From contig JACQFP010000087.1 of the NCBI GenBank assembly GCA_016200005.1, positions 1 to 64,000 of the forward strand: 64,000 nt of DNA, given 5' to 3'. Source of the stretch: Verrucomicrobiota bacterium. Its GTDB lineage: Bacteria > Verrucomicrobiota > Verrucomicrobiia > Limisphaerales > PALSA-1396. The notes below the pieces were generated by a model that saw only the letters and a list, made by a program, of their open reading frames with translations, did no database searches and had not been told where the DNA came from. Below are positions 5,052 to 13,540 of this stretch, in pieces (the stretch's first letter is position 1; each line of letters starts with the position of its first letter). A program made the translations under genes and the position numbers.

Positions 5052-5205
5052 GATTTGATTTTGTTAAGCGTTCAAAATTCAGGCCAGGGGTTTATCTGTT
5101 TTGGCGCCACGCGGCAAGGGTAGAAATTGTGTGGAACGGACAAATTGCCACGGCGTGAAGCGTCCTTGCAGAAGGAACTTTCCCCTCTTACATTGCCACC
5201 GTTCT

Positions 5206-5535
5206 ATGAGCGCATTGGAAGCAGCCGAAGAAATTCTCGCCAAGCTCACGCGGGCGGAGAAGGCGCAATTGCTGCGTTGGGCGGCCAGTGATTTGAGTGA
5301 TGCCTTTCCCGGCATCGAGAGCCGTCCCGGCGTTTGCGGAGACGAGCCGTGCATCGTCCGCACGCGGATTCCGGTGTGGGTGCTGGAACAGGCACGCCGA
5401 TTGGGTGTGTCCGAGGCGGAACTCTTACGTTCCTATCCGACTTTGCGCGCGGAAGACCTGGCCAATGCCTGGGCTTACGTGCGGTCGCATCGCGACGAAA
5501 TCAACCGCCAGATTGAGGACAACGAAGCCGACTGA
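5206..5535 (+). CDS. DUF433 family protein (putative antitoxin)
   Basis: 109 aa from the ATG at 5206; the longer frame back to 5101 has no signal of being coding. The core (GIESRPGVCGDEPCIVRTRIPVWVL, then LGVSEAELLRSYPTLRAEDL) is the DUF433 signature: a short HTH-like domain with the conserved G-x-P-C-I-x-x-TRIPV and YP-L motifs. DUF433 proteins usually sit in front of a DUF5615 PIN-like protein and the two are regarded as a likely type II toxin-antitoxin pair. That arrangement is seen here, with the stop overlapping the next start by one base. Antitoxin role is inferred from family and context only. Confidence 0.8.
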   Translation: MSALEAAEEILAKLTRAEKAQLLRWAASDLSDAFPGIESRPGVCGDEPCIVRTRIPVWVLEQARRLGVSEAELLRSYPTLRAEDLANAWAYVRSHRDEINRQIEDNEAD

Positions 5536-5870
5536 TGGCGCGGCTCTATTCCAACGAAAACTTTCCGCTTCCCGCCGTCGAGAAGCTGCGCACGCTCGGC
5601 CACGACGTTTTGACCGTTCAGGAAGCTGGCAAGGCAGACCAAGCTCTGCCGGATGATGAAGTCCTCAAAACTGCAACAGGCGACAATCGCGCTGTGCTTA
5701 CATTGAATCGCCGCCACTTCATTCGGCTACATCGAAATGATCAAACGCACACGGGCATTATCGTTTGCACTTTTGATGCGGATTTTGCGGGCCAGGCGGA
5801 GAGGATTCACAAAGCCATCGGTGATCAAAGCTCACTGAACGGGCAGTTGATTCGCGTAAATCGGCCATGA
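5535..5870 (+). CDS. DUF5615 family PIN-like protein (putative toxin)
   Basis: 111 aa, starting in the TGATGG overlap with the DUF433 gene, so the two are translationally coupled. The start (LYSNENFPLPAVEKLRTLGHDVLTVQEAG) and the middle (LPDDEVLKTATGDNRAVLTLNRRHFIRLH) match DUF5615: a small PIN-like fold whose acidic residues (here N/E near the start, DDEVL, then the D-x-x-x-L-T-x-N block) would bind metal. The first acidic position, usually Asp in 'DENL', is here 'NENF'. Predicted RNase toxin or its degenerate relative; nuclease activity is not shown. No transposon or phage genes flank the pair. Confidence 0.8.
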   Translation: MARLYSNENFPLPAVEKLRTLGHDVLTVQEAGKADQALPDDEVLKTATGDNRAVLTLNRRHFIRLHRNDQTHTGIIVCTFDADFAGQAERIHKAIGDQSSLNGQLIRVNRP

Positions 5871-6186: not shown

Positions 6187-7128
6187 ATGCAGGTTGGAAT
6201 CTCAGCCATCGAATACGCGCTGCCGGAACGGCGTGTCAGCCTGACCGAATTGGAAGCGGCGGGACAACTGGATACTCCCGCCGCGCGCCTGCGGGAGTTC
6301 GGTTTTGAATTCGCGCACGTGAGCGAGCAGCCGGCTGTCGCCCTGGCCACCCAAGCGCTCGGCCAACTTTTGCAGAACCATCCCATCCCGCCCGAATCAA
6401 TCGACGCGCTCTTCTACGCCGGCGCCCTCCCGCAGAGTCATTTTGTGGACGACCATCCCGGTGACTTCCTGAGCGGTTTCAATTATCCGGTCAGCAAGCT
6501 GCAATATGAATTCGGGTTGCTGAACGCGGCGGTGCTGGGCATCGGCCAGGTGGGTTGCCTCGGTTTGATGAGCGCGGTAAAGGCGGCCGCGAATTTTCTG
6601 AGGGCCAACCCGGATGCCCACCGCGCGCTTTGCGTGAGCGCCGACGTGTTTCCGCCTTCCGTCAAACGCGAAGTCATTTACAACGTGATTTCCGACGGCG
6701 CCTGCGCGGTGCTCGTGGAAAAGGACGTGGACACGAATCGCATCCTTGCCCACCAGCAAATCACCAAGGGCTACTACTGGGACAGCATCGCCCGCAAAAA
6801 CGAAATCATCGCCGCGTACTTTCCCACCTCCCGGCATATTGTCAGTGACACGCTTGGCCGCGCCGGCGTTGCATCAAAGGAACTCGCGTGGATTTTGCCG
6901 CACAACGTCTCACGGCGAAGCTGGGACATCCTGCTGGGATTGCTGGCTTTGCCGCCGGAAAAGCTTTGGGCGGACAATATCGCCACCAAGGGCCACGTCA
7001 TCGCCGCCGACAATTTCATCAATCTCAAAGACGCAACGGATCGTGGTGTCTTGAAGTCCGGCGATAAACTTTTGCTGTTCAATTTTGGTTTCGGCGCAAA
7101 CTGGAGTTGCATGGTATTGGAACATTGA
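6187..7128 (+). CDS. KAS III (FabH)-like ketoacyl synthase, first gene of the carrier-protein operon
   Basis: 313-aa thiolase-fold condensing enzyme. The nucleophile Cys is C124 in the block GIGQVGCLGLMSA, and the His of the classical PHQAN motif is H239 (ILPHNVSRRSWD). The third catalytic position, an Asn in the GNTSAAS motif of FabH, is here His (H270, TKGHVIAADN), followed by an Asn six residues on. The end (LLFNFGFGANWSCMVLEH) is normal for KAS III. It heads eleven tightly packed genes and ends one base before the next start. In family terms it would condense or transfer a carrier-bound or CoA-bound acyl group; the changed third residue suggests acyl transfer or altered decarboxylation rather than ordinary fatty acid initiation (inference). 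Confidence 0.8.
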   Translation: MQVGISAIEYALPERRVSLTELEAAGQLDTPAARLREFGFEFAHVSEQPAVALATQALGQLLQNHPIPPESIDALFYAGALPQSHFVDDHPGDFLSGFNYPVSKLQYEFGLLNAAVLGIGQVGCLGLMSAVKAAANFLRANPDAHRALCVSADVFPPSVKREVIYNVISDGACAVLVEKDVDTNRILAHQQITKGYYWDSIARKNEIIAAYFPTSRHIVSDTLGRAGVASKELAWILPHNVSRRSWDILLGLLALPPEKLWADNIATKGHVIAADNFINLKDATDRGVLKSGDKLLLFNFGFGANWSCMVLEH

Positions 7129-7129
7129 C

Positions 7130-8236
7130 ATGAAACAGATGCTCCTCATCACCGGCGGCAGCGGCGCAGTTGGCCGACCGCTGCTGGCCGCGCTCGCGGC
7201 GGTCGGTGAGGTCGAAAAGATTTACGTCCTAGTGCGTCACTTACCTGACAACTTCGAGTTGCCGAAGGTCAAACTCGTGCCGGGCGACGTGACGAATCCC
7301 AACAATTGCGGGCTGTCGCCGGAAACCGCGCGCGAACTCGCCGGCGAGGTGACAGCCATCCTGCACGGCGCGGCCCACACCCGCTTTGATGCGCCGCTGG
7401 ACTTGGCGCGTCACGTGAACGTCGCCGGCACGCAAAACCTGCTCACGCTGGCGACGCGCTGTCGGCGGCTGGAACGCTTTGGTTTTTTGAGCACCTGCCA
7501 CGTCGCTGGCAAGCGCTGCGGTAAAATTCTCGAATCCGAACTCACACACGCCTGTGGCTTCGTCAACGCCTACGAGCAAACCAAGCACGAAGCTGAGCAA
7601 CTTCTGCGCGCGGCTTACCCGGCGCTTCCCATCGCGGTCTATCGCCTTAGCACCATCCTTGGCGATGCGCCCACAGGTGCGGTGAACAAGCTCGCGGCGG
7701 TTCACCACGCCATCCGTTTCTTTTACGGTAGTCTCGCGCCGATGATTCCCGGCCAGGCGGACAGTCCGGTGGATTTGATCTCGCAGGATTACGCAGTGGC
7801 GGCGATATGTGAGTTGTTTTGCCATCGGTTTGCGGCGGGGCAGACCTTTCACGTGTGCGCGGGAGACGATGCCCTGCCGCTGGACGAATTTCTCGACCTC
7901 ACACTCAAAGTGTTCATGCGCCATCGACCCGCCTGGCGCAAGCGTGGGATTGAGAAGCCGGCCATTGTCGATTTGCCGACGTTTGAATTATTCGCCCGGT
8001 CCGTCGAGGAAATCGGCGATTCACCGCTCGTCCAGAGCGTCGCGCTGGTAAAGCATTTCGCCCCGCAGTTGGCGTTTCCAAAGCAGTTTGACGACACGGA
8101 ATGCGCTCGCGCTCTGGCGAACAGCGGCGTGACGCGGCCCGGCTTGCGGGAATTTTATCCGCGCGTCATTCAGTGGCTCATGGAACACCGTTGGGGCCCG
8201 CGCGCGTTGCCGGAGATGGAGGGCGTCGCAGCATGA
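7130..8236 (+). CDS. NAD(P)-dependent SDR, thioester-reductase / male-sterility-like
   Basis: 368 aa from the ATG at 7130, one base after the preceding stop. Extended short-chain dehydrogenase fold: GGSGAVG cofactor loop at residues 8-14, an Asp (PGDVTN) at the end of a later strand, ILHGAAHTRFD, the FLSTCHVAG strand with the catalytic Ser/Thr, and a YEQTK catalytic Tyr-Lys pair. The pattern is closest to the thioester-reductase (NAD_binding_4) group that releases carrier-bound acyl chains as aldehyde or alcohol, although epimerase-type reductases look similar. In this operon it is the natural candidate for reductive offloading. Its last bases (ATGA) overlap the first ACP gene. Sure of fold; specific reaction inferred. 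Confidence 0.75.
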   Translation: MKQMLLITGGSGAVGRPLLAALAAVGEVEKIYVLVRHLPDNFELPKVKLVPGDVTNPNNCGLSPETARELAGEVTAILHGAAHTRFDAPLDLARHVNVAGTQNLLTLATRCRRLERFGFLSTCHVAGKRCGKILESELTHACGFVNAYEQTKHEAEQLLRAAYPALPIAVYRLSTILGDAPTGAVNKLAAVHHAIRFFYGSLAPMIPGQADSPVDLISQDYAVAAICELFCHRFAAGQTFHVCAGDDALPLDEFLDLTLKVFMRHRPAWRKRGIEKPAIVDLPTFELFARSVEEIGDSPLVQSVALVKHFAPQLAFPKQFDDTECARALANSGVTRPGLREFYPRVIQWLMEHRWGPRALPEMEGVAA

Positions 8237-8490
8237 ACACCGCCACGACCTCGCTCCTGGAATTTGTGAATGGCGAATTGCTGCCGGACTCGGCGCAGCG
8301 CGTCAACGCGGACACCCCGCTGTTTGCGGATGGACTGGTGGATTCGCTGAAGATTTTGCAACTGATCGCTTTTGTCGAAATGAAAACGGGTCAGAACATT
8401 TCCGACCGCGACGTGGTGATGGAAAACTTCCGCACCGTCCAAACGATTATCGAACACTTTTACGATGCCGAGCCAATCGCCAACCAGTAA
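8233..8490 (+). CDS. Acyl carrier protein 1
   Basis: 85-aa acidic helical protein with the phosphopantetheine site Ser in the motif ADGLVDSLKILQL (consensus D/N-S-L). The ATG overlaps the stop of the reductase gene (ATGA), and the 3' end is overlapped by 26 bp by the ligase gene. The attachment motif is DSL with a Val before it, as in stand-alone carriers used by amino acid:[carrier protein] ligases and in many NRPS/PKS carriers; the house-keeping AcpP motif is closer to GADSLDTVEL. Direct adjacency suggests that this is the carrier that receives the amino acid from the next gene product (inference). Confidence 0.85.
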   Translation: MNTATTSLLEFVNGELLPDSAQRVNADTPLFADGLVDSLKILQLIAFVEMKTGQNISDRDVVMENFRTVQTIIEHFYDAEPIANQ

Positions 8491-9310
8491 AGTGTTCATT
8501 GACCCCGTGCCCGAACTGCTGCGGCGCGGCGAGCTGCGCACTGCCGGGGATGGCCGCGTCATCCTCAGCGGACAGCCCCTGGCGTTGTGGCATTGGTTCG
8601 ATGCGCAATTTGTCCGGCTGGCCCGCGAAACCGGCGCTATGGAAATTCAGTTCCCCGCGTTGATTGAGCGCAAAACCCTGGAGCGCGCGGGCTATTTCGA
8701 CGCGTTCGACGAAACGGCAACGCGGGTGACCGCAAACGGTGCGGAACAATCGCACGCCTTGACGCCGGCGGTGTGTTATCACTGCTACGCGCAATTTGCG
8801 GGCAAGCGTCTGGAACAGCCGCTTCTACTCACTTGCGTAGGCAAATGCTTTCGTCGCGAACCGGACGGATTTGAATCGCTTGCGCGGCTGTGGGAGTTCA
8901 CGATGCGCGAAGTGGTCTTTGTTGGTCCAGCCGGCTGGGTCGCGGAACGACGGAGCGAATGGCAGGGGCGGGTGAGCACATTCACAAAGTCGCTGGGATT
9001 GGTTGGGGAAATCGCTCTGGCGACCGATCCGTTTTTCGGGGGTGAAGGGCGTGGGAAAAAATTGCTTCAGCAACTCAAACAATTAAAATACGAACTGCGT
9101 CTGGAACTCGACGGCGAGAAAAATCTGGCCGTGGCCTCGTTCAATTTGCATGAGACATTTTTTGGTCGCCGCTTTGGAATCACGCTGGCCGATGGAACGA
9201 CCGCCCATTCCGGCTGCGTTGCGTTTGGGCTGGAGCGTTGGGTCCTCGCGTTCCTGACGCAACGTGGCGTTGAGGCCGCGGCGGAAGTTTGCGTTAAAGA
9301 CACGCTATGA
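8465..9310 (+). CDS. Amino acid:[carrier protein] ligase (class II seryl-tRNA synthetase-like)
   Basis: 281 aa, half the size of a seryl-tRNA synthetase: catalytic domain only, no N-terminal tRNA-binding coiled coil. Motif 2-like block CVGKCFRREP, then RLWEFTMREVVFVG, and motif 3 GLERW near the C-terminus. Family knowledge: in the Bradyrhizobium Bll0957 enzyme zinc is held by Cys131, Glu176 and Cys279; here C104 (TPAVCYHCYA), E149 (FTMREV) and C251 (AHSGCVAFG) fall at almost the same spacing, so the amino-acid pocket appears intact. Such enzymes activate glycine or alanine with ATP and load it on the phosphopantetheine of a small carrier protein. Embedded between carrier protein and diiron genes with overlaps at both ends. 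Substrate amino acid is unknown. Confidence 0.88.
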   Translation: MPSQSPTSKVFIDPVPELLRRGELRTAGDGRVILSGQPLALWHWFDAQFVRLARETGAMEIQFPALIERKTLERAGYFDAFDETATRVTANGAEQSHALTPAVCYHCYAQFAGKRLEQPLLLTCVGKCFRREPDGFESLARLWEFTMREVVFVGPAGWVAERRSEWQGRVSTFTKSLGLVGEIALATDPFFGGEGRGKKLLQQLKQLKYELRLELDGEKNLAVASFNLHETFFGRRFGITLADGTTAHSGCVAFGLERWVLAFLTQRGVEAAAEVCVKDTL

Positions 9311-10029
9311 TTTACGACGAATATCTTACGCAGGCGGAGTTGCAGCGCTGGATTCTGGAGTCGGACGTGGCCTGGAACCGTGTCGATGCCGCGCTGGCCC
9401 GCAGCCAACCCGAACTGCTCGACGAGTTACGCGATTCCGCCCTCATCGAATCGTACTTCCCGATCTACACCACTCAACTCATGCGCGCGCTGTGGGACCA
9501 GGTCGATGCCACCGCCGTCTTCTCCATCCAGCTCTACGAATCCTACAAACATTTTTACGTGTTGAATCGTTACCTTGAAGTTGTGGAATATCGGCCAATC
9601 TCGGAAGCGGAACTGATCGAGGTGCGACGGCGCAACCGCGATCGCGAAGTCGCGGACGGCGTCGGCGAACTGGCGCGTTACATGGTGAGCGAGCATTTCG
9701 CGGCTTACTTTTTTCTCCGGCTCGCGCGCCAGGTCAACGAGCCGGTGCTGCGGCAGATCGTCGAGTTCATCGCCAAGGACGAATTCCGCCATTCGCAGTT
9801 CGCGTTTGATCTGTTGGAAACGCGCCTCCGGAGCGAACCCGCCAGCCGTGAACGCGTGCTGGCTGCGGGATTGAATTTTCGGCACATCGGCGCGGACGTG
9901 CTGACCAAAGTTCCGGTTTCGGAGAAAAATGACTTGCAAGCGATTCTGACGCTGAACAAAAAGATGCATCGGCTTTGCGGCGTCAGTCTCACGGAATTTG
10001 CGAAGGGAACATTGCATGAGGGTTACTGA
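9307..10029 (+). CDS. Ferritin-like diiron oxidase/desaturase-like protein 1
   Basis: 240 aa, nearly all helical. Possible iron ligands: E48, E78 with H82 (YESYKH), E129 with H130 (VSEHF), and E159 with H162 in KDEFRHSQ. The DE-x-RH block is like the last ligand helix of acyl-ACP desaturases (ADEKRHE) and other ferritin-like diiron oxidases. The first E/H pair is spaced ExxxH rather than the usual ExxH. The ATG overlaps the stop of the ligase gene. In context it may oxidise, hydroxylate or desaturate a carrier-bound aminoacyl or acyl group. Exact chemistry unknown; alternative would be a non-catalytic ferritin-like protein. Confidence 0.65.
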   Translation: MIYDEYLTQAELQRWILESDVAWNRVDAALARSQPELLDELRDSALIESYFPIYTTQLMRALWDQVDATAVFSIQLYESYKHFYVLNRYLEVVEYRPISEAELIEVRRRNRDREVADGVGELARYMVSEHFAAYFFLRLARQVNEPVLRQIVEFIAKDEFRHSQFAFDLLETRLRSEPASRERVLAAGLNFRHIGADVLTKVPVSEKNDLQAILTLNKKMHRLCGVSLTEFAKGTLHEGY

Positions 10030-10576
10030 ACGGGAAATCTGGTTGTTGAATTTTTACCGCAACAGTGAACTGCACGGCGCGCTGTTCATGGGCAAGCTGG
10101 CGCGCAACTACCGCGATCCGGAGTTGCTCGTCCATCTCACGCAACATTGCGCGACCGAGGCGCATCACGCCGCGCTCCTGAGTGAAACCATCGTCGCCCT
10201 CGGCGTGCCGCTCGATCCTCAAACCGAAACGATCCAGAACCATTACGCAGCGAAAGGCGGCCTGCCGAAGGAACTGGTGGATCTGCTGGTGCTTTCCGAA
10301 ACGCTCGAAAAGCGCGTGCTCACCAGCTATCGCGCCCATCTCGCCCGCCCGGATGTTCATCCACAAGTGCGCGCCACGCTCGCGCAAATCCTCCACGAAA
10401 TGGAGGAGGAGGAAAATGGCGAGCACGCCGGCTGGATCGAAAAGACGTTGCAACAGCAACCGCACGAAAAAGTTGAAGCCGCCGAAGCCAGGTGGCGCTC
10501 CGTGGACGAACGCGTAGTCGCTGCGCTGCAACAGATGGTGGCGAAACAATTCTCCGAAGAAGCGATCCTCGAATGA
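10016..10576 (+). CDS. Ferritin-like diiron protein 2
   Basis: 186 aa from the ATG at 10016, which overlaps the previous stop by 14 bp (an earlier in-frame start at 9998 is less likely). Helical with metal-ligand-like residues: E18 and H20 (NSELHG), E48xxH51 (ATEAHHA), E95/E98 (LSETLEK) and an acidic run with E133 and H137 (EEENGEHAGW). This fits a ferritin-like four-helix bundle, distinct in sequence from the preceding diiron protein. The C-terminal 45 residues are a charged helix. Tandem placement suggests that the two act at successive steps or as partners. Stop overlaps the start of the second carrier protein gene. Confidence 0.6.
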   Translation: MRVTEREIWLLNFYRNSELHGALFMGKLARNYRDPELLVHLTQHCATEAHHAALLSETIVALGVPLDPQTETIQNHYAAKGGLPKELVDLLVLSETLEKRVLTSYRAHLARPDVHPQVRATLAQILHEMEEEENGEHAGWIEKTLQQQPHEKVEAAEARWRSVDERVVAALQQMVAKQFSEEAILE

Positions 10577-10815
10577 AATCTATTGAGCAACAAATCGCCC
10601 GCATCATCAGCCGCGCCGCCCATATCCCGGTGAGCGACGTGCGACCTGACGCCAAATTGTCCGAGCTGGGTGTCAACTCGCTGGACCAGGTCGAGTGTGT
10701 CATGGCGGTCGAAGAAACGTTTCAGATCGAGGTGGATCCGCAGGCTCTTTGGCGACTGCGAACCGTGCAGGACGTGATCAATGCGGTTGAAGCCGCGGTC
10801 GCCGCCCGCGCGTGA
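10573..10815 (+). CDS. Acyl carrier protein 2
   Basis: 80 aa with the phosphopantetheine site in LSELGVNSLDQVECVMAVE (NSLD motif). This is closer to a fatty-acid or polyketide type carrier than ACP 1 (DSLKI), so the two carriers probably have different partners. ATGA overlap with the preceding gene. ACP 2 lies just before the acyl-CoA dehydrogenase gene (9-bp gap), which suggests that the dehydrogenase may use an ACP-bound substrate (inference). Confidence 0.88.
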   Translation: MKSIEQQIARIISRAAHIPVSDVRPDAKLSELGVNSLDQVECVMAVEETFQIEVDPQALWRLRTVQDVINAVEAAVAARA

Positions 10816-10824
10816 TGTTGCGCC

Positions 10825-11934
10825 ATGCGAACTGCGCTCTTCAACGACACCCATCAACGGTTTCGCGCTGACGTTCGCGCGTTTGTCGAACGCAAACTGA
10901 AGCCCCACGCGTCGAAGTGGGAACGCGTCGGCCGCTTTCCGCGCACGGTGCTTGAAGAATTCGGCCAGCGCGGGTGGCTCGCGCTCGACCCGCAAGGCAA
11001 CGCGGTGCTGGCTGAGGAACTGCCGCGCAGCGAGTCGCTGGGGCTGGCGTTGAGCGTTTTCGTGCAGTCCAACCTCATCGCGCCGTTGCTGGCTGAACTT
11101 GGAACGAAATCACAGCAAGAAATCTTTTTGCCGCCGTTGCGGAGAGGAAAAATCATGGGCGCGATGGCGGTTTCCGAACCGGCGACTGGGTCGGACTTCG
11201 CCGCGTTGCAATCCACGGCGCAACGGAAGCGCGAACACCTGGTCGTCAACGGCGTCAAGACCTACATCACGAACGGTGCGTGCGCGGATTTTTTGATCGT
11301 GGCCGCGCGAACGCGGGACGAACCCGGGCTGGGTGCGCTCAGCCTGTTGCTGATTTCTACCGCCACCCCAGGTGTGCGGGTCAAGCGTCTGGCCACACTC
11401 GGCCTGAACAGTTCGGCGATGGGCGAAATCATGCTGCGCAATGTTCGCGTGCCCCGGTCCAGTCTCCTCGGCGACGAAGGCGCGGCGTTTAGCTACGTGC
11501 AGCAGGCTCTCAATCGCGAGCGCTTGTTCGGCGGCCTGGCCTGTGTGGCGTGGGCCGATTACGCGATGGAAAAAACCGTCGCGTTCGCCCGCCAACGACA
11601 GGCATTCGGCAAATCCCTGACGAGATTTCAGGCGATCCGACATCAGTTTGCCGAGATGGCGACGACACTCGAGGCGGCGCGGCAACTCAATTACGCAGCT
11701 TTGAATCGCTGGATCGCCGGCAAGGACGCCACCAAAGAGATCGGCATGGTCAAACTCTTCAGTTATCAAACGGCGCAGCAAGTGATCGAACGCTGTTTGC
11801 AATTGCACGGCGGCGCGGGTTATCTCGCCGACCACTGGATCAGCCGTTTTTACCGCGACGCGCGGGCGTTGACCATCGCCGCCGGTACACCCGAAATCAT
11901 GAAGGAACTGATCGCAGCTTATTTGCGACTCTAA
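10825..11934 (+). CDS. Acyl-CoA (or acyl/aminoacyl-ACP) dehydrogenase
   Basis: 369-aa FAD enzyme of the acyl-CoA dehydrogenase family. Seen: AVSEPATGSDFAAL (flavin/substrate block), YITNG, the RQAFGKSLTRFQAIRHQFAEM block and the C-terminal LHGGAGYLADHWISRFYRDAR. The catalytic Glu of the medium-chain enzymes lies in a YEGT motif near the C-terminus; here the site is IAAGT, with Ala. Isovaleryl-CoA dehydrogenase also has AGT there and uses a Glu on an earlier helix (LERL); the matching residue here is E232 in LNRERLFGG, so catalysis looks possible. Relatives oxidise prolyl carrier proteins in pyrrole pathways. In this operon a carrier-bound substrate is the more likely one (inference). Confidence 0.85.
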   Translation: MRTALFNDTHQRFRADVRAFVERKLKPHASKWERVGRFPRTVLEEFGQRGWLALDPQGNAVLAEELPRSESLGLALSVFVQSNLIAPLLAELGTKSQQEIFLPPLRRGKIMGAMAVSEPATGSDFAALQSTAQRKREHLVVNGVKTYITNGACADFLIVAARTRDEPGLGALSLLLISTATPGVRVKRLATLGLNSSAMGEIMLRNVRVPRSSLLGDEGAAFSYVQQALNRERLFGGLACVAWADYAMEKTVAFARQRQAFGKSLTRFQAIRHQFAEMATTLEAARQLNYAALNRWIAGKDATKEIGMVKLFSYQTAQQVIERCLQLHGGAGYLADHWISRFYRDARALTIAAGTPEIMKELIAAYLRL

Positions 11935-11937
11935 GCA

Positions 11938-12768
11938 ATGGCGCAATTCTTCAACCGCACCCGGGTCTCGAAATCCATCACGCTGAAGCTGCTCCGACAG
12001 GGCCGGCCACTGAGCGTGCTGGTCTATTGGCTCGTGCAAGCCAGCGACCTCGGCCGTGAAGGGATTGAACACTCGGGCAGTTATCGCTTCGCCGACCACA
12101 TCTATCGTAATGTCCCTTCGGGCCGCGGACGTTTTGGTCGCTGGCTCGATGCGAAATTCCTGGCGATGCCTGCCGTTCAATCCTTCCGCAATCGCTACCT
12201 AGCGGCGCGCGATGAACTGTGCCGGTTTCTCACCGAGCGCGTCGGCCACGGCAAACCGCTCGATGTCGTGAGCGCACCCTGCGGCATCCCGCGCGAACTG
12301 GTAGAGGGAGCGCGGCTGTTTCGCGAACGAACGGGGCAGACATTGGAGGGTGTGACGTTTCATGGTGTTGACCTGGATGCAGATTTGTTGGAACAAGACA
12401 AGCGCTTCGCAGCAGAAAACAGCCTGCCGAATTTCATCGCGCATCACGGCGACGCCCTCGACCGCGCCACGTATCCCGAAGGCGCGGACTTCATCACCTG
12501 CACCGGGCTGGCGGAATTTTTGAGCGATGAACTGTTGGAGCGGTTGTATCGCATTTTTTTTGACGTGCTGCGTTCCGACGGATTGCTGGTTACCAGCGGC
12601 ATGAAGCGCAAGCGGCTGCCCGATTATTTGCTGCGGCTGGCGGAGCTCAAGACCCACTATCGCACCCCGCCGCAACTGGCAGCCATCGCCCGCCGCGTGC
12701 CGTTCGCCGAGGTGCGCACGCGGGTGGATGAGTTCGGCATCCAGACCATTTTGAACGCGCGCAAATGA
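11938..12768 (+). CDS. Class I SAM-dependent methyltransferase
   Basis: 276 aa. N-terminal helical part with SGSYRFADHIYRNVPSGRG, a stretch like that of the PF12147 (Methyltransf_20) group, followed by a Rossmann core: LDVVSAPCGIPRELVEGA (motif I, with a Cys-Gly-Ile in place of the usual GxG), FHGVDLDADLL (acidic end of strand 2), FIAHHGDAL and FITCTGLAEFLSD. It starts 4 bp after the dehydrogenase and its stop overlaps the next start. The substrate may be the carrier-bound product or the released metabolite. Sure of fold, not of target. Confidence 0.75.
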   Translation: MAQFFNRTRVSKSITLKLLRQGRPLSVLVYWLVQASDLGREGIEHSGSYRFADHIYRNVPSGRGRFGRWLDAKFLAMPAVQSFRNRYLAARDELCRFLTERVGHGKPLDVVSAPCGIPRELVEGARLFRERTGQTLEGVTFHGVDLDADLLEQDKRFAAENSLPNFIAHHGDALDRATYPEGADFITCTGLAEFLSDELLERLYRIFFDVLRSDGLLVTSGMKRKRLPDYLLRLAELKTHYRTPPQLAAIARRVPFAEVRTRVDEFGIQTILNARK

Positions 12769-13130
12769 ATGTGCGCCTGTTCCAACGAAACGCGCGCTGG
12801 GTCTGGCGCTGGCGATGCCGGCAGTCGGCGGGACAGTTGGCGCAAACGTGGCTGGCGTGCCATCGAAAAACAGTGGATTGGCGGACGGTTTTTAGAGAGA
12901 GTCTCACCCTGATGGCCTTGGACGCACAAGACGAAGCCCATGGATTGCGCCTGGAAGCGGGCGCGGGCGAAGTCACGTGGCAACCGCGCGCCTGGGGCAC
13001 GACGATTTCCCTGCGGCTGGAGAAATTCTCCCCGCGAAAACAAAACCTGGTGGCGGCGGCGTTGGGAAAAGCCGCTCGCTACCATCAAATCGAAAAGGAA
13101 CCATGCCAACCGCGACCGAAAGCATTGTGA
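12765..13130 (+). CDS. Unknown small basic protein of the carrier-protein operon
   Basis: 121 aa; no family recognised. It starts in an ATGA overlap with the methyltransferase gene and its 3' end overlaps the SRPBCC gene by 28 bp, which supports a real gene. The first half is rich in Trp and Arg (RWVWRWRCRQ), the second half has an acidic then amphipathic pattern (LRLEAGAGEVTWQPRAWG). No signal peptide or clear membrane segment. It could be an accessory or partner protein. Confidence 0.55.
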   Translation: MNVRLFQRNARWVWRWRCRQSAGQLAQTWLACHRKTVDWRTVFRESLTLMALDAQDEAHGLRLEAGAGEVTWQPRAWGTTISLRLEKFSPRKQNLVAAALGKAARYHQIEKEPCQPRPKAL

Positions 13131-13540
13131 TTGCCGTGCCGCCACAGAAAGTGTTCGAGTATATCGCCGACGCTAAACGGGCGACCACCTTCATCCCCGG
13201 CCTCAACCGGATCAGCAACCTTTCCACGCCCACGGCCAAAGTCGGTCAGGAGTGGGAGTTTGAGTTCGACTGGTTCGGGCTGATCATCTCGGGCAAGAGC
13301 AAGTGCTCACGCTTGGAGCCTCCCGGTTTGTATCAATTCCAAACCGTCACCGGCTCCCTGAGCACCTGGACTTACCGCTTTCAACCCGAAGGCAGCCAGA
13401 CGCGCGTCGCGTTGGAAGTGGAATACGAAGTGCCGCAGAACTTGCTCGCCCGTTTCGCCGCGCAGCCGGTTTTGGAAAAGATGAACCAGAGCCGCGCGCG
13501 CGAAACTCTCGCCAATCTCAAAGCGCTGGTCGAATCGTAA
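13103..13540 (+). CDS. SRPBCC (START/polyketide-cyclase-like) protein
   Basis: 145 aa from the ATG at 13103, preceded by AAAAGGA about 5 nt upstream; the longer frame back to 12977 overlaps the previous gene too far. The pattern ESIVIAVPPQKVFEYIADAKRATTFIPGL at the N-terminus, a central beta stretch and a long C-terminal helix (NQSRARETLANLKAL) is the classic SRPBCC helix-grip fold with a hydrophobic ligand cavity. Members bind lipids or act as aromatase/cyclases on polyketide chains. Last gene of the operon; it converges on dxs with a 30-bp gap and no evident terminator. Confidence 0.8.
   Translation: MPTATESIVIAVPPQKVFEYIADAKRATTFIPGLNRISNLSTPTAKVGQEWEFEFDWFGLIISGKSKCSRLEPPGLYQFQTVTGSLSTWTYRFQPEGSQTRVALEVEYEVPQNLLARFAAQPVLEKMNQSRARETLANLKALVES

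Follow-up and report, generated by a model that had tools for sequence, protein, structure and literature searches.

Comparison with described carrier-protein ligase systems

Amino acid:[carrier protein] ligases of the bll0957/Atu2573 type were reportedly described by Mocibob et al. in 2010, and are encoded in operons that also specify an acyl carrier protein (ACP), an acyl-CoA dehydrogenase (ACAD) and a DUF1839 protein. A relative of these ligases was identified in an eleven-gene operon (positions 6187 to 13540, plus strand) within the first 64,000 nucleotides of contig JACQFP010000087.1 of a Verrucomicrobiota bacterium (assembly GCA_016200005.1), a stretch referred to here as the window. The two kinds of operon have in common the ligase fold, its zinc ligands and class-II motifs, a free-standing carrier next to the ligase and an ACAD nearby. 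Those of the bll0957/Atu2573 type, however, lack the β-ketoacyl synthase III (KAS III)-like protein, the short-chain dehydrogenase/reductase (SDR), the diiron proteins and the methyltransferase of the window, whose ligase falls below the NF005479 cut-off; their ACADs showed no match to the window ACAD. The gene set was found described nowhere in the literature searched, which was open-licence only, and has no named counterpart there; the cluster is best described as a carrier-protein pathway with an amino acid:[carrier protein] ligase as its basis. The cluster very likely represents a real but unnamed biosynthetic pathway. On balance, and with slightly better than even confidence, it is considered to be a compact, horizontally spread cluster in which amino acids would be held on free-standing carriers instead of nonribosomal peptide synthetase (NRPS) modules. 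There they would be oxidised, then joined to another unit or transferred, as well as methylated, with release by reduction.

Aminomalonyl-ACP sets (the zwittermicin logic) are also close, sharing an aminoacyl-tRNA synthetase (aaRS)-like ligase, carriers and an ACAD acting on a carrier-bound amino acid. They differ in that the window operon has no 3-hydroxyacyl-CoA dehydrogenase, no acyltransferase (AT) domain and no polyketide synthase (PKS) to feed. Two such sets were seen in Streptomyces sp. NBC_00557 (L065, 6452-11273), whose ACAD is 33% identical to that of the window, and Alkalihalophilus pseudofirmus (L066, 7680-13770); in both, the ligase homologue stands in the place of an adenylation domain, and its neighbours (a 3-hydroxyacyl-CoA dehydrogenase, a carrier, an ACAD and an acyltransferase) are those expected where aminomalonyl-type extender units are made. 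Other relatives of the ligase on plasmids occur in the order ACP-ACAD-ligase-DUF1839-GH2 in proteobacteria and as ACP-ACAD-ligase alone in Priestia. Further homologues adjoin AurF-family diiron oxygenases in Streptomyces NBC_00335 and Agrobacterium vitis F2/5. From these neighbours, oxidation of a carrier-bound amino acid appears to recur with this ligase family, the oxidases changing. On A. vitis plasmid pAvF25a (L067, 5920-9476), an AurF-family oxygenase, a nitronate monooxygenase, the ligase homologue, an FlK-type thioesterase and a phosphopantetheinyl transferase (PPTase) are encoded in a row, an arrangement suggestive of a small pathway for N-oxidation of an amino acid on its carrier.

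Operon layout

The source genome (6.54 Mb, 87 contigs) is 96% complete. Eleven plus-strand open reading frames fill the interval from 6187 to 13540, neighbouring genes either overlapping by 4-28 bp or being separated by 1, 3 or 9 bp, and the grouping of the eleven genes is confirmed. In gene order, the products are the KAS III-like protein, the SDR, a first carrier protein (CP1), the ligase, two ferritin-like proteins (DI1 and DI2), a second carrier (CP2), the ACAD, the methyltransferase, ORF121 and an SRPBCC protein. Pfam and NCBIfam models named the KAS III, an NAD_binding_4 SDR, two PP-binding carriers, a tRNA-synt_2b protein nearest to the amino acid--[ACP] ligase model, an ACAD, a Methyltransf_20 protein and a Polyketide_cyc2 protein; DI1 and DI2 passed no Pfam cut-off and were placed solely by profile and fold comparison. 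Promoter and terminator scans performed no better than shuffles.

A profile search of the genome returned four PF00550 matches, two of them in the operon, and therefore neither an NRPS nor a modular PKS is present. A single ACPS-family PPTase was found, its AcpS type being judged from size and from its being the only match. The initial annotation had described an eleven-gene operon with overlapping or near-abutting junctions, two different carriers, a thioester-reductase-like SDR, a KAS III-like enzyme with a changed active site and no NRPS or PKS megasynthase; each of these descriptions held, the last one genome-wide.

Conservation and distribution

A ligase scan of genome contigs led to an acidobacterial metagenome-assembled genome (locus L005) that encodes nine of the genes in the order of the window. 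Identities were 51% for CP1, 43% for the ligase, 69% for DI1, 52% for DI2, 53% for CP2, 59% for the ACAD, 57% for the methyltransferase, 35% for ORF121 and 52% for the SRPBCC protein. This contig stops before the position of the KAS and SDR genes, and no good KAS match was identified elsewhere in the same genome. When 388 genomes of the window's phylum were scanned with DI1, five matches were obtained (the window and four others), and a denser order-level scan brought one more core-type genome, giving five besides the window. These five other Verrucomicrobiota genomes (L016-L019 and L056) carry KAS-SDR-CP1-ligase-CP2-DI1-DI2-methyltransferase on one strand, CP2 preceding DI1, unlike the order in the window.

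ACAD, ORF121 and the SRPBCC protein are absent from the five core-type loci, out of seven in all; the core therefore comprises eight genes, and these three are accessory to the subtype formed by the window and L005. The eleven genes had been taken initially as one set, a view now corrected to a core of eight. ORF121 (12765 to 13130, plus strand) is without a known family and has no Pfam match, but is regarded as a real gene because its homologue (35%, E 1.6e-11) sits at the equivalent place in L005. The other small accessory product, the SRPBCC/Polyketide_cyc2 protein (13103 to 13540, plus strand), is assigned from PF10604 (63.8 bits) and its L005 homologue.

The window is the sole carrier of the cluster among 97 relatives (ligase search) and among 245 genomes of its own order (DI1 search). 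Similarly, of 396 genomes of its phylum (E below 1e-15) and 95 of its order, none but that of L005 clearly carries the cluster. Since the genes recur together in six other genomes, chance grouping is rejected. A single carrier-protein pathway had been proposed at the outset, on the understanding that absence of the grouping from related genomes would speak against it; the grouping recurs, and the proposal is supported.

Insertion into the chromosome

In an order relative (G023, locus L081), xseB, dxs and icd are direct neighbours with the same orientation. The segment 5052 to 13570 comes between dxs and icd in the window; it consists of a DUF433/DUF5615 pair and the operon and has a GC content of 0.58-0.61, versus about 0.57 in the flanks. 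The empty site is seen in one genome, G023; in two other relatives (L082 and L083) the stretch compared includes dxs and lacks icd, and the contig of a member of the same genus (G001) ends inside dxs and is uninformative on the insertion. Taken with the patchy distribution, the empty site indicates that the operon was probably acquired horizontally and that the cluster is probably mobile. A vertically inherited or housekeeping function is rejected because of the empty site and because the other sampled genomes of the order lack the cluster. The DUF433/DUF5615 pair (5101-5870), located beside the operon within the inserted segment, is of a kind known from toxin-antitoxin systems.

Ligase and carrier proteins

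The ligase-like core protein (8465 to 9310, plus strand) has bll0957 as its best PDB match (3mey, E 6e-35). It is 281 amino acids long and comprises the catalytic core only, without a tRNA-binding domain. Alignment of 16 ligases showed C104, E149 and C251 (the zinc ligands) as well as R130, E132 and R258 to be invariant; the protein has the Cys, Glu, Cys zinc ligands and the class-II motif 2 and 3 arginines of amino acid:[carrier protein] ligases, and is probably one of them, as predicted from these residues. Because it scores 161.8 bits against the NF005479 equivalog cut-off of 357, it is considered a divergent relative and not the named equivalog. Two pocket subtypes were found, SFNLH/SGC in the window and L005 and SINRH/SAC in the core loci. 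In a tree of the 16 ligases, support was weak (0.17) for grouping the window with L005 and strong (0.999) for grouping the five core-type ligases. Naming the amino acid from the pocket was rejected, as the sequence gives no basis for a choice.

CP1 (8233 to 8490, plus strand; PF00550 27.7 bits, above cut-off) is a core protein with a DSL motif and the presumed aminoacyl carrier. Its gene overlaps that of the ligase in the window as well as in homologous loci, although in the window an alternative GTG start of the ligase at 8492 would abolish the overlap. The phosphopantetheine serine (S38 in CP1) is invariant in 14 of 14 carriers. By NCBIfam models, CP1 is nearest to AsbD, DltC and ornithine-lipid carriers, and CP2 (10573 to 10815, plus strand; core; PF00550 53.6 bits) to fatty-acid ACPs.

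Such carriers would also suit an aminolipid-type pathway, in which CP2 would hold a fatty acyl group and the KAS would pass it to a CP1-bound amino acid to give a membrane or signalling lipid. The resemblance of DI1 to acyl-ACP desaturases and the lack of an exporter gene point the same way; the operon, however, encodes neither an acyltransferase of the glycerol or lipid type nor an acyl-ACP synthetase, and this explanation is regarded as distinctly unlikely.

KAS III-like protein, SDR, ACAD and methyltransferase

The KAS III-like core protein (6187 to 7128, plus strand; PF08541/PF08545 above cut-off) shares with FabH a common fold and the nucleophilic cysteine (Cys124, invariant in its homologues). 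The Cys-His-Asn condensing triad of FabH-type KAS III enzymes is not kept: in alignments including FabH 2ebd, the catalytic Asn is replaced by His270 in six of six homologues, and the catalytic His is present in the window only (His240), being Thr or Asn in the other five of the six. In the FabH mechanism, the His and Asn support decarboxylation of malonyl groups. Given this, the loss of Asn everywhere and of His in most argues for acyl transfer by the KAS III-like protein, rather than malonyl-driven extension. Extension of glycine or alanine, suggested in the initial annotation, is accordingly left without support by the KAS, and the specificity of the ligase cannot be read from its sequence.

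The thioester-reductase-like extended SDR (7130 to 8236, plus strand; core) belongs to NAD_binding_4 (PF07993, 146 bits) and has the Ser-Tyr-Lys residues of that family (S121, Y148 and K152), which are invariant in the alignment. Its best PDB match is the reductase domain of MxaA, a PKS/NRPS reductase domain; against TIGR01746 it scored 105 bits, below the cut-off of 213. The accessory ACAD-family flavoprotein (10825 to 11934, plus strand) possesses all three ACAD domains above cut-off (PF02771, PF02770 and PF00441, the last at 139 bits). Aligned to 2pg0, it has Glu in the motif NRERL and Ala at the second site; we take the former to be the isovaleryl-CoA-dehydrogenase-type position and the latter the medium-chain (MCAD)-type position. 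The core methyltransferase (11938 to 12768, plus strand) is a class I S-adenosylmethionine methyltransferase-like protein of the Methyltransf_20 family, identified by PF12147 (32 bits, above cut-off) and by alignment.

Ferritin-like proteins

Both ferritin-like proteins were modelled and compared by fold; ferritin-like helical bundles score high in such comparisons by default, so the matches set the superfamily and not the reaction. DI1 (9307 to 10029, plus strand; core; model pLDDT 86.6) has an acyl-ACP-desaturase-like fold, matching these desaturases at VIA Z 15.6-17.2 over 213-223 residues, VlmB at 14.6, R2lox at 14 and ADO at 13.6, and its best PDB sequence match is DesA2 (E 2.4e-6). E48, E129 and E159xxH162 are kept in seven of seven homologues, together with E78 and H82 in ExxxH spacing. 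With the castor enzyme and DesA2, DI1 thus shares its fold and most metal ligands, and it differs from them in its length of 240 amino acids, in its PF03405 score (16.9 bits against a cut-off of 22.7) and in having E78xxxH82 as first motif where they have ExxH. On Methylibium petroleiphilum plasmid RPME01 (L035, 7291-9843), genes for a haem-oxygenase-like iron enzyme and a crotonase precede that of a distant DI1 relative annotated as a ferritin, and Burkholderia plasmids carry a similar relative; the plasmid search with DI1 returned only distant ferritins in this setting, and the plasmid search with DI2 returned no matches.

In the main chemical rival to C-H oxidation, DI1 and DI2 would instead act on the amino nitrogen while the amino acid is held on its carrier, and would yield a hydroxylamine, an oxime, a nitro compound or an N-N product. 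The AurF-family N-oxygenases beside ligase homologues described above (one of them with a nitronate monooxygenase) and the match of DI1 to the azoxy synthase VlmB are in its favour. Aliphatic azoxy clusters (valanimycin and azodyrecin, with VlmA/B/O) resemble the operon in having a ferritin-like diiron enzyme of similar fold, seryl-tRNA synthetase (SerRS) relatives and a methyltransferase, but the window has a carrier in place of tRNA. Some VlmA-type azoxy clusters also include KAS III-like and SerRS genes (PMC9379638). Against this, DI1 scores 15.5 bits with the AurF model PF11583, below the cut-off of 29.6. The mark of FDO N-oxygenases is a seventh His, located four residues ahead of the Glu of helix 4 (PMC12154687); DI1 lacks it, with Ile/Val155 in the alignment. 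Nor are VlmA, VlmO or a flavin N-hydroxylase among the eleven operon products, the rest of the genome not having been searched for them. N-oxidation is judged unlikely.

DI2 (10016 to 10576, plus strand; core; model pLDDT 90.4) has an ADO/MiaE-like fold, with VIA Z scores of 15-17 to 3ez0, ADO and MiaE. E48xxH51 is kept, and the helix-4 motif is ExxH in the five core loci, ENGEH in the window and without His in L005. A route like the cyanobacterial AAR-ADO pair was weighed here, in which the SDR would convert an acyl group on a carrier to an aldehyde, and DI2 (or DI1) would shorten or oxidise that aldehyde. It draws on the match of the DI2 model to ADO (Z 15-16.6) and of the SDR to acyl reductases, but ferritin-like bundles often reach such Z scores, DI2 is closer in sequence to MiaE and other ferritins than to ADO, and two of the seven loci have an altered helix-4 motif in DI2; this route is considered very improbable. 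Oxidation of a bound acyl group by both proteins, as first proposed, is plausible for DI1 and less sure for DI2 owing to the altered motif in the window and L005. The helix-4 change (window 10400-10447, residues 128-140; L005 1803-2357) is confined to the subtype with ACAD, ORF121 and the SRPBCC protein, as if the ACAD had taken over an oxidation step.

Proposed pathway

The gene set, its conservation, the insertion, the conserved or altered active-site residues and the folds are established. On the preferred reading as a carrier-bound amino acid pathway, AcpS would arm CP1 and CP2, and the ligase would activate one amino acid as its adenylate and load it onto CP1. DI1 would then oxidise the bound amino acid, either desaturating or hydroxylating it at C-H bonds, and DI2 would serve as its partner or as another oxidase. 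The KAS cysteine would move or join acyl groups between CP1 and CP2, or onto an amine or hydroxyl, without malonyl extension. Reduction of the thioester by the SDR would release the product as an aldehyde or alcohol, and the methyltransferase would cap it. In the window/L005 subtype, the ACAD may add an α,β-oxidation, with ORF121 and the SRPBCC protein as possible helpers.

Several points weigh against this scheme. We infer each chemical step, the order of the steps and the product; the pairing of ligase and CP1 is presumed, and the direction of the SDR reaction is proposed. With two ligase subtypes, the loci may differ in the amino acid used. The window KAS, alone in keeping His240, might differ from its homologues, and the window DI2, with its degenerate helix-4 motif, may not bind two irons. 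Neither a transporter nor a regulator adjoins the operon.

According to a 2022 review, it is still unknown what biological role these ligases fulfil by attaching amino acids to carrier proteins (PMC9437257). In the present cluster, the ligase is found within a conserved, transferable and nearly complete pathway with defined partners, which opens the question of its role to direct testing. Also in the set are two unassigned ferritin-like oxidases and a KAS III-like enzyme without the condensing residues, all likely acting on carrier-bound substrates, in Verrucomicrobiota, a phylum with few characterised metabolites. More tentatively, and with less than even confidence, the cluster may represent a family of thiotemplate pathways that do without NRPS and PKS and have not been recognised before. 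With an aaRS-derived ligase, two ferritin-like enzymes would oxidise the amino acid on its carrier, and a triad-less KAS III would join it to a second carrier-bound unit, giving rise to a new class of small molecules.

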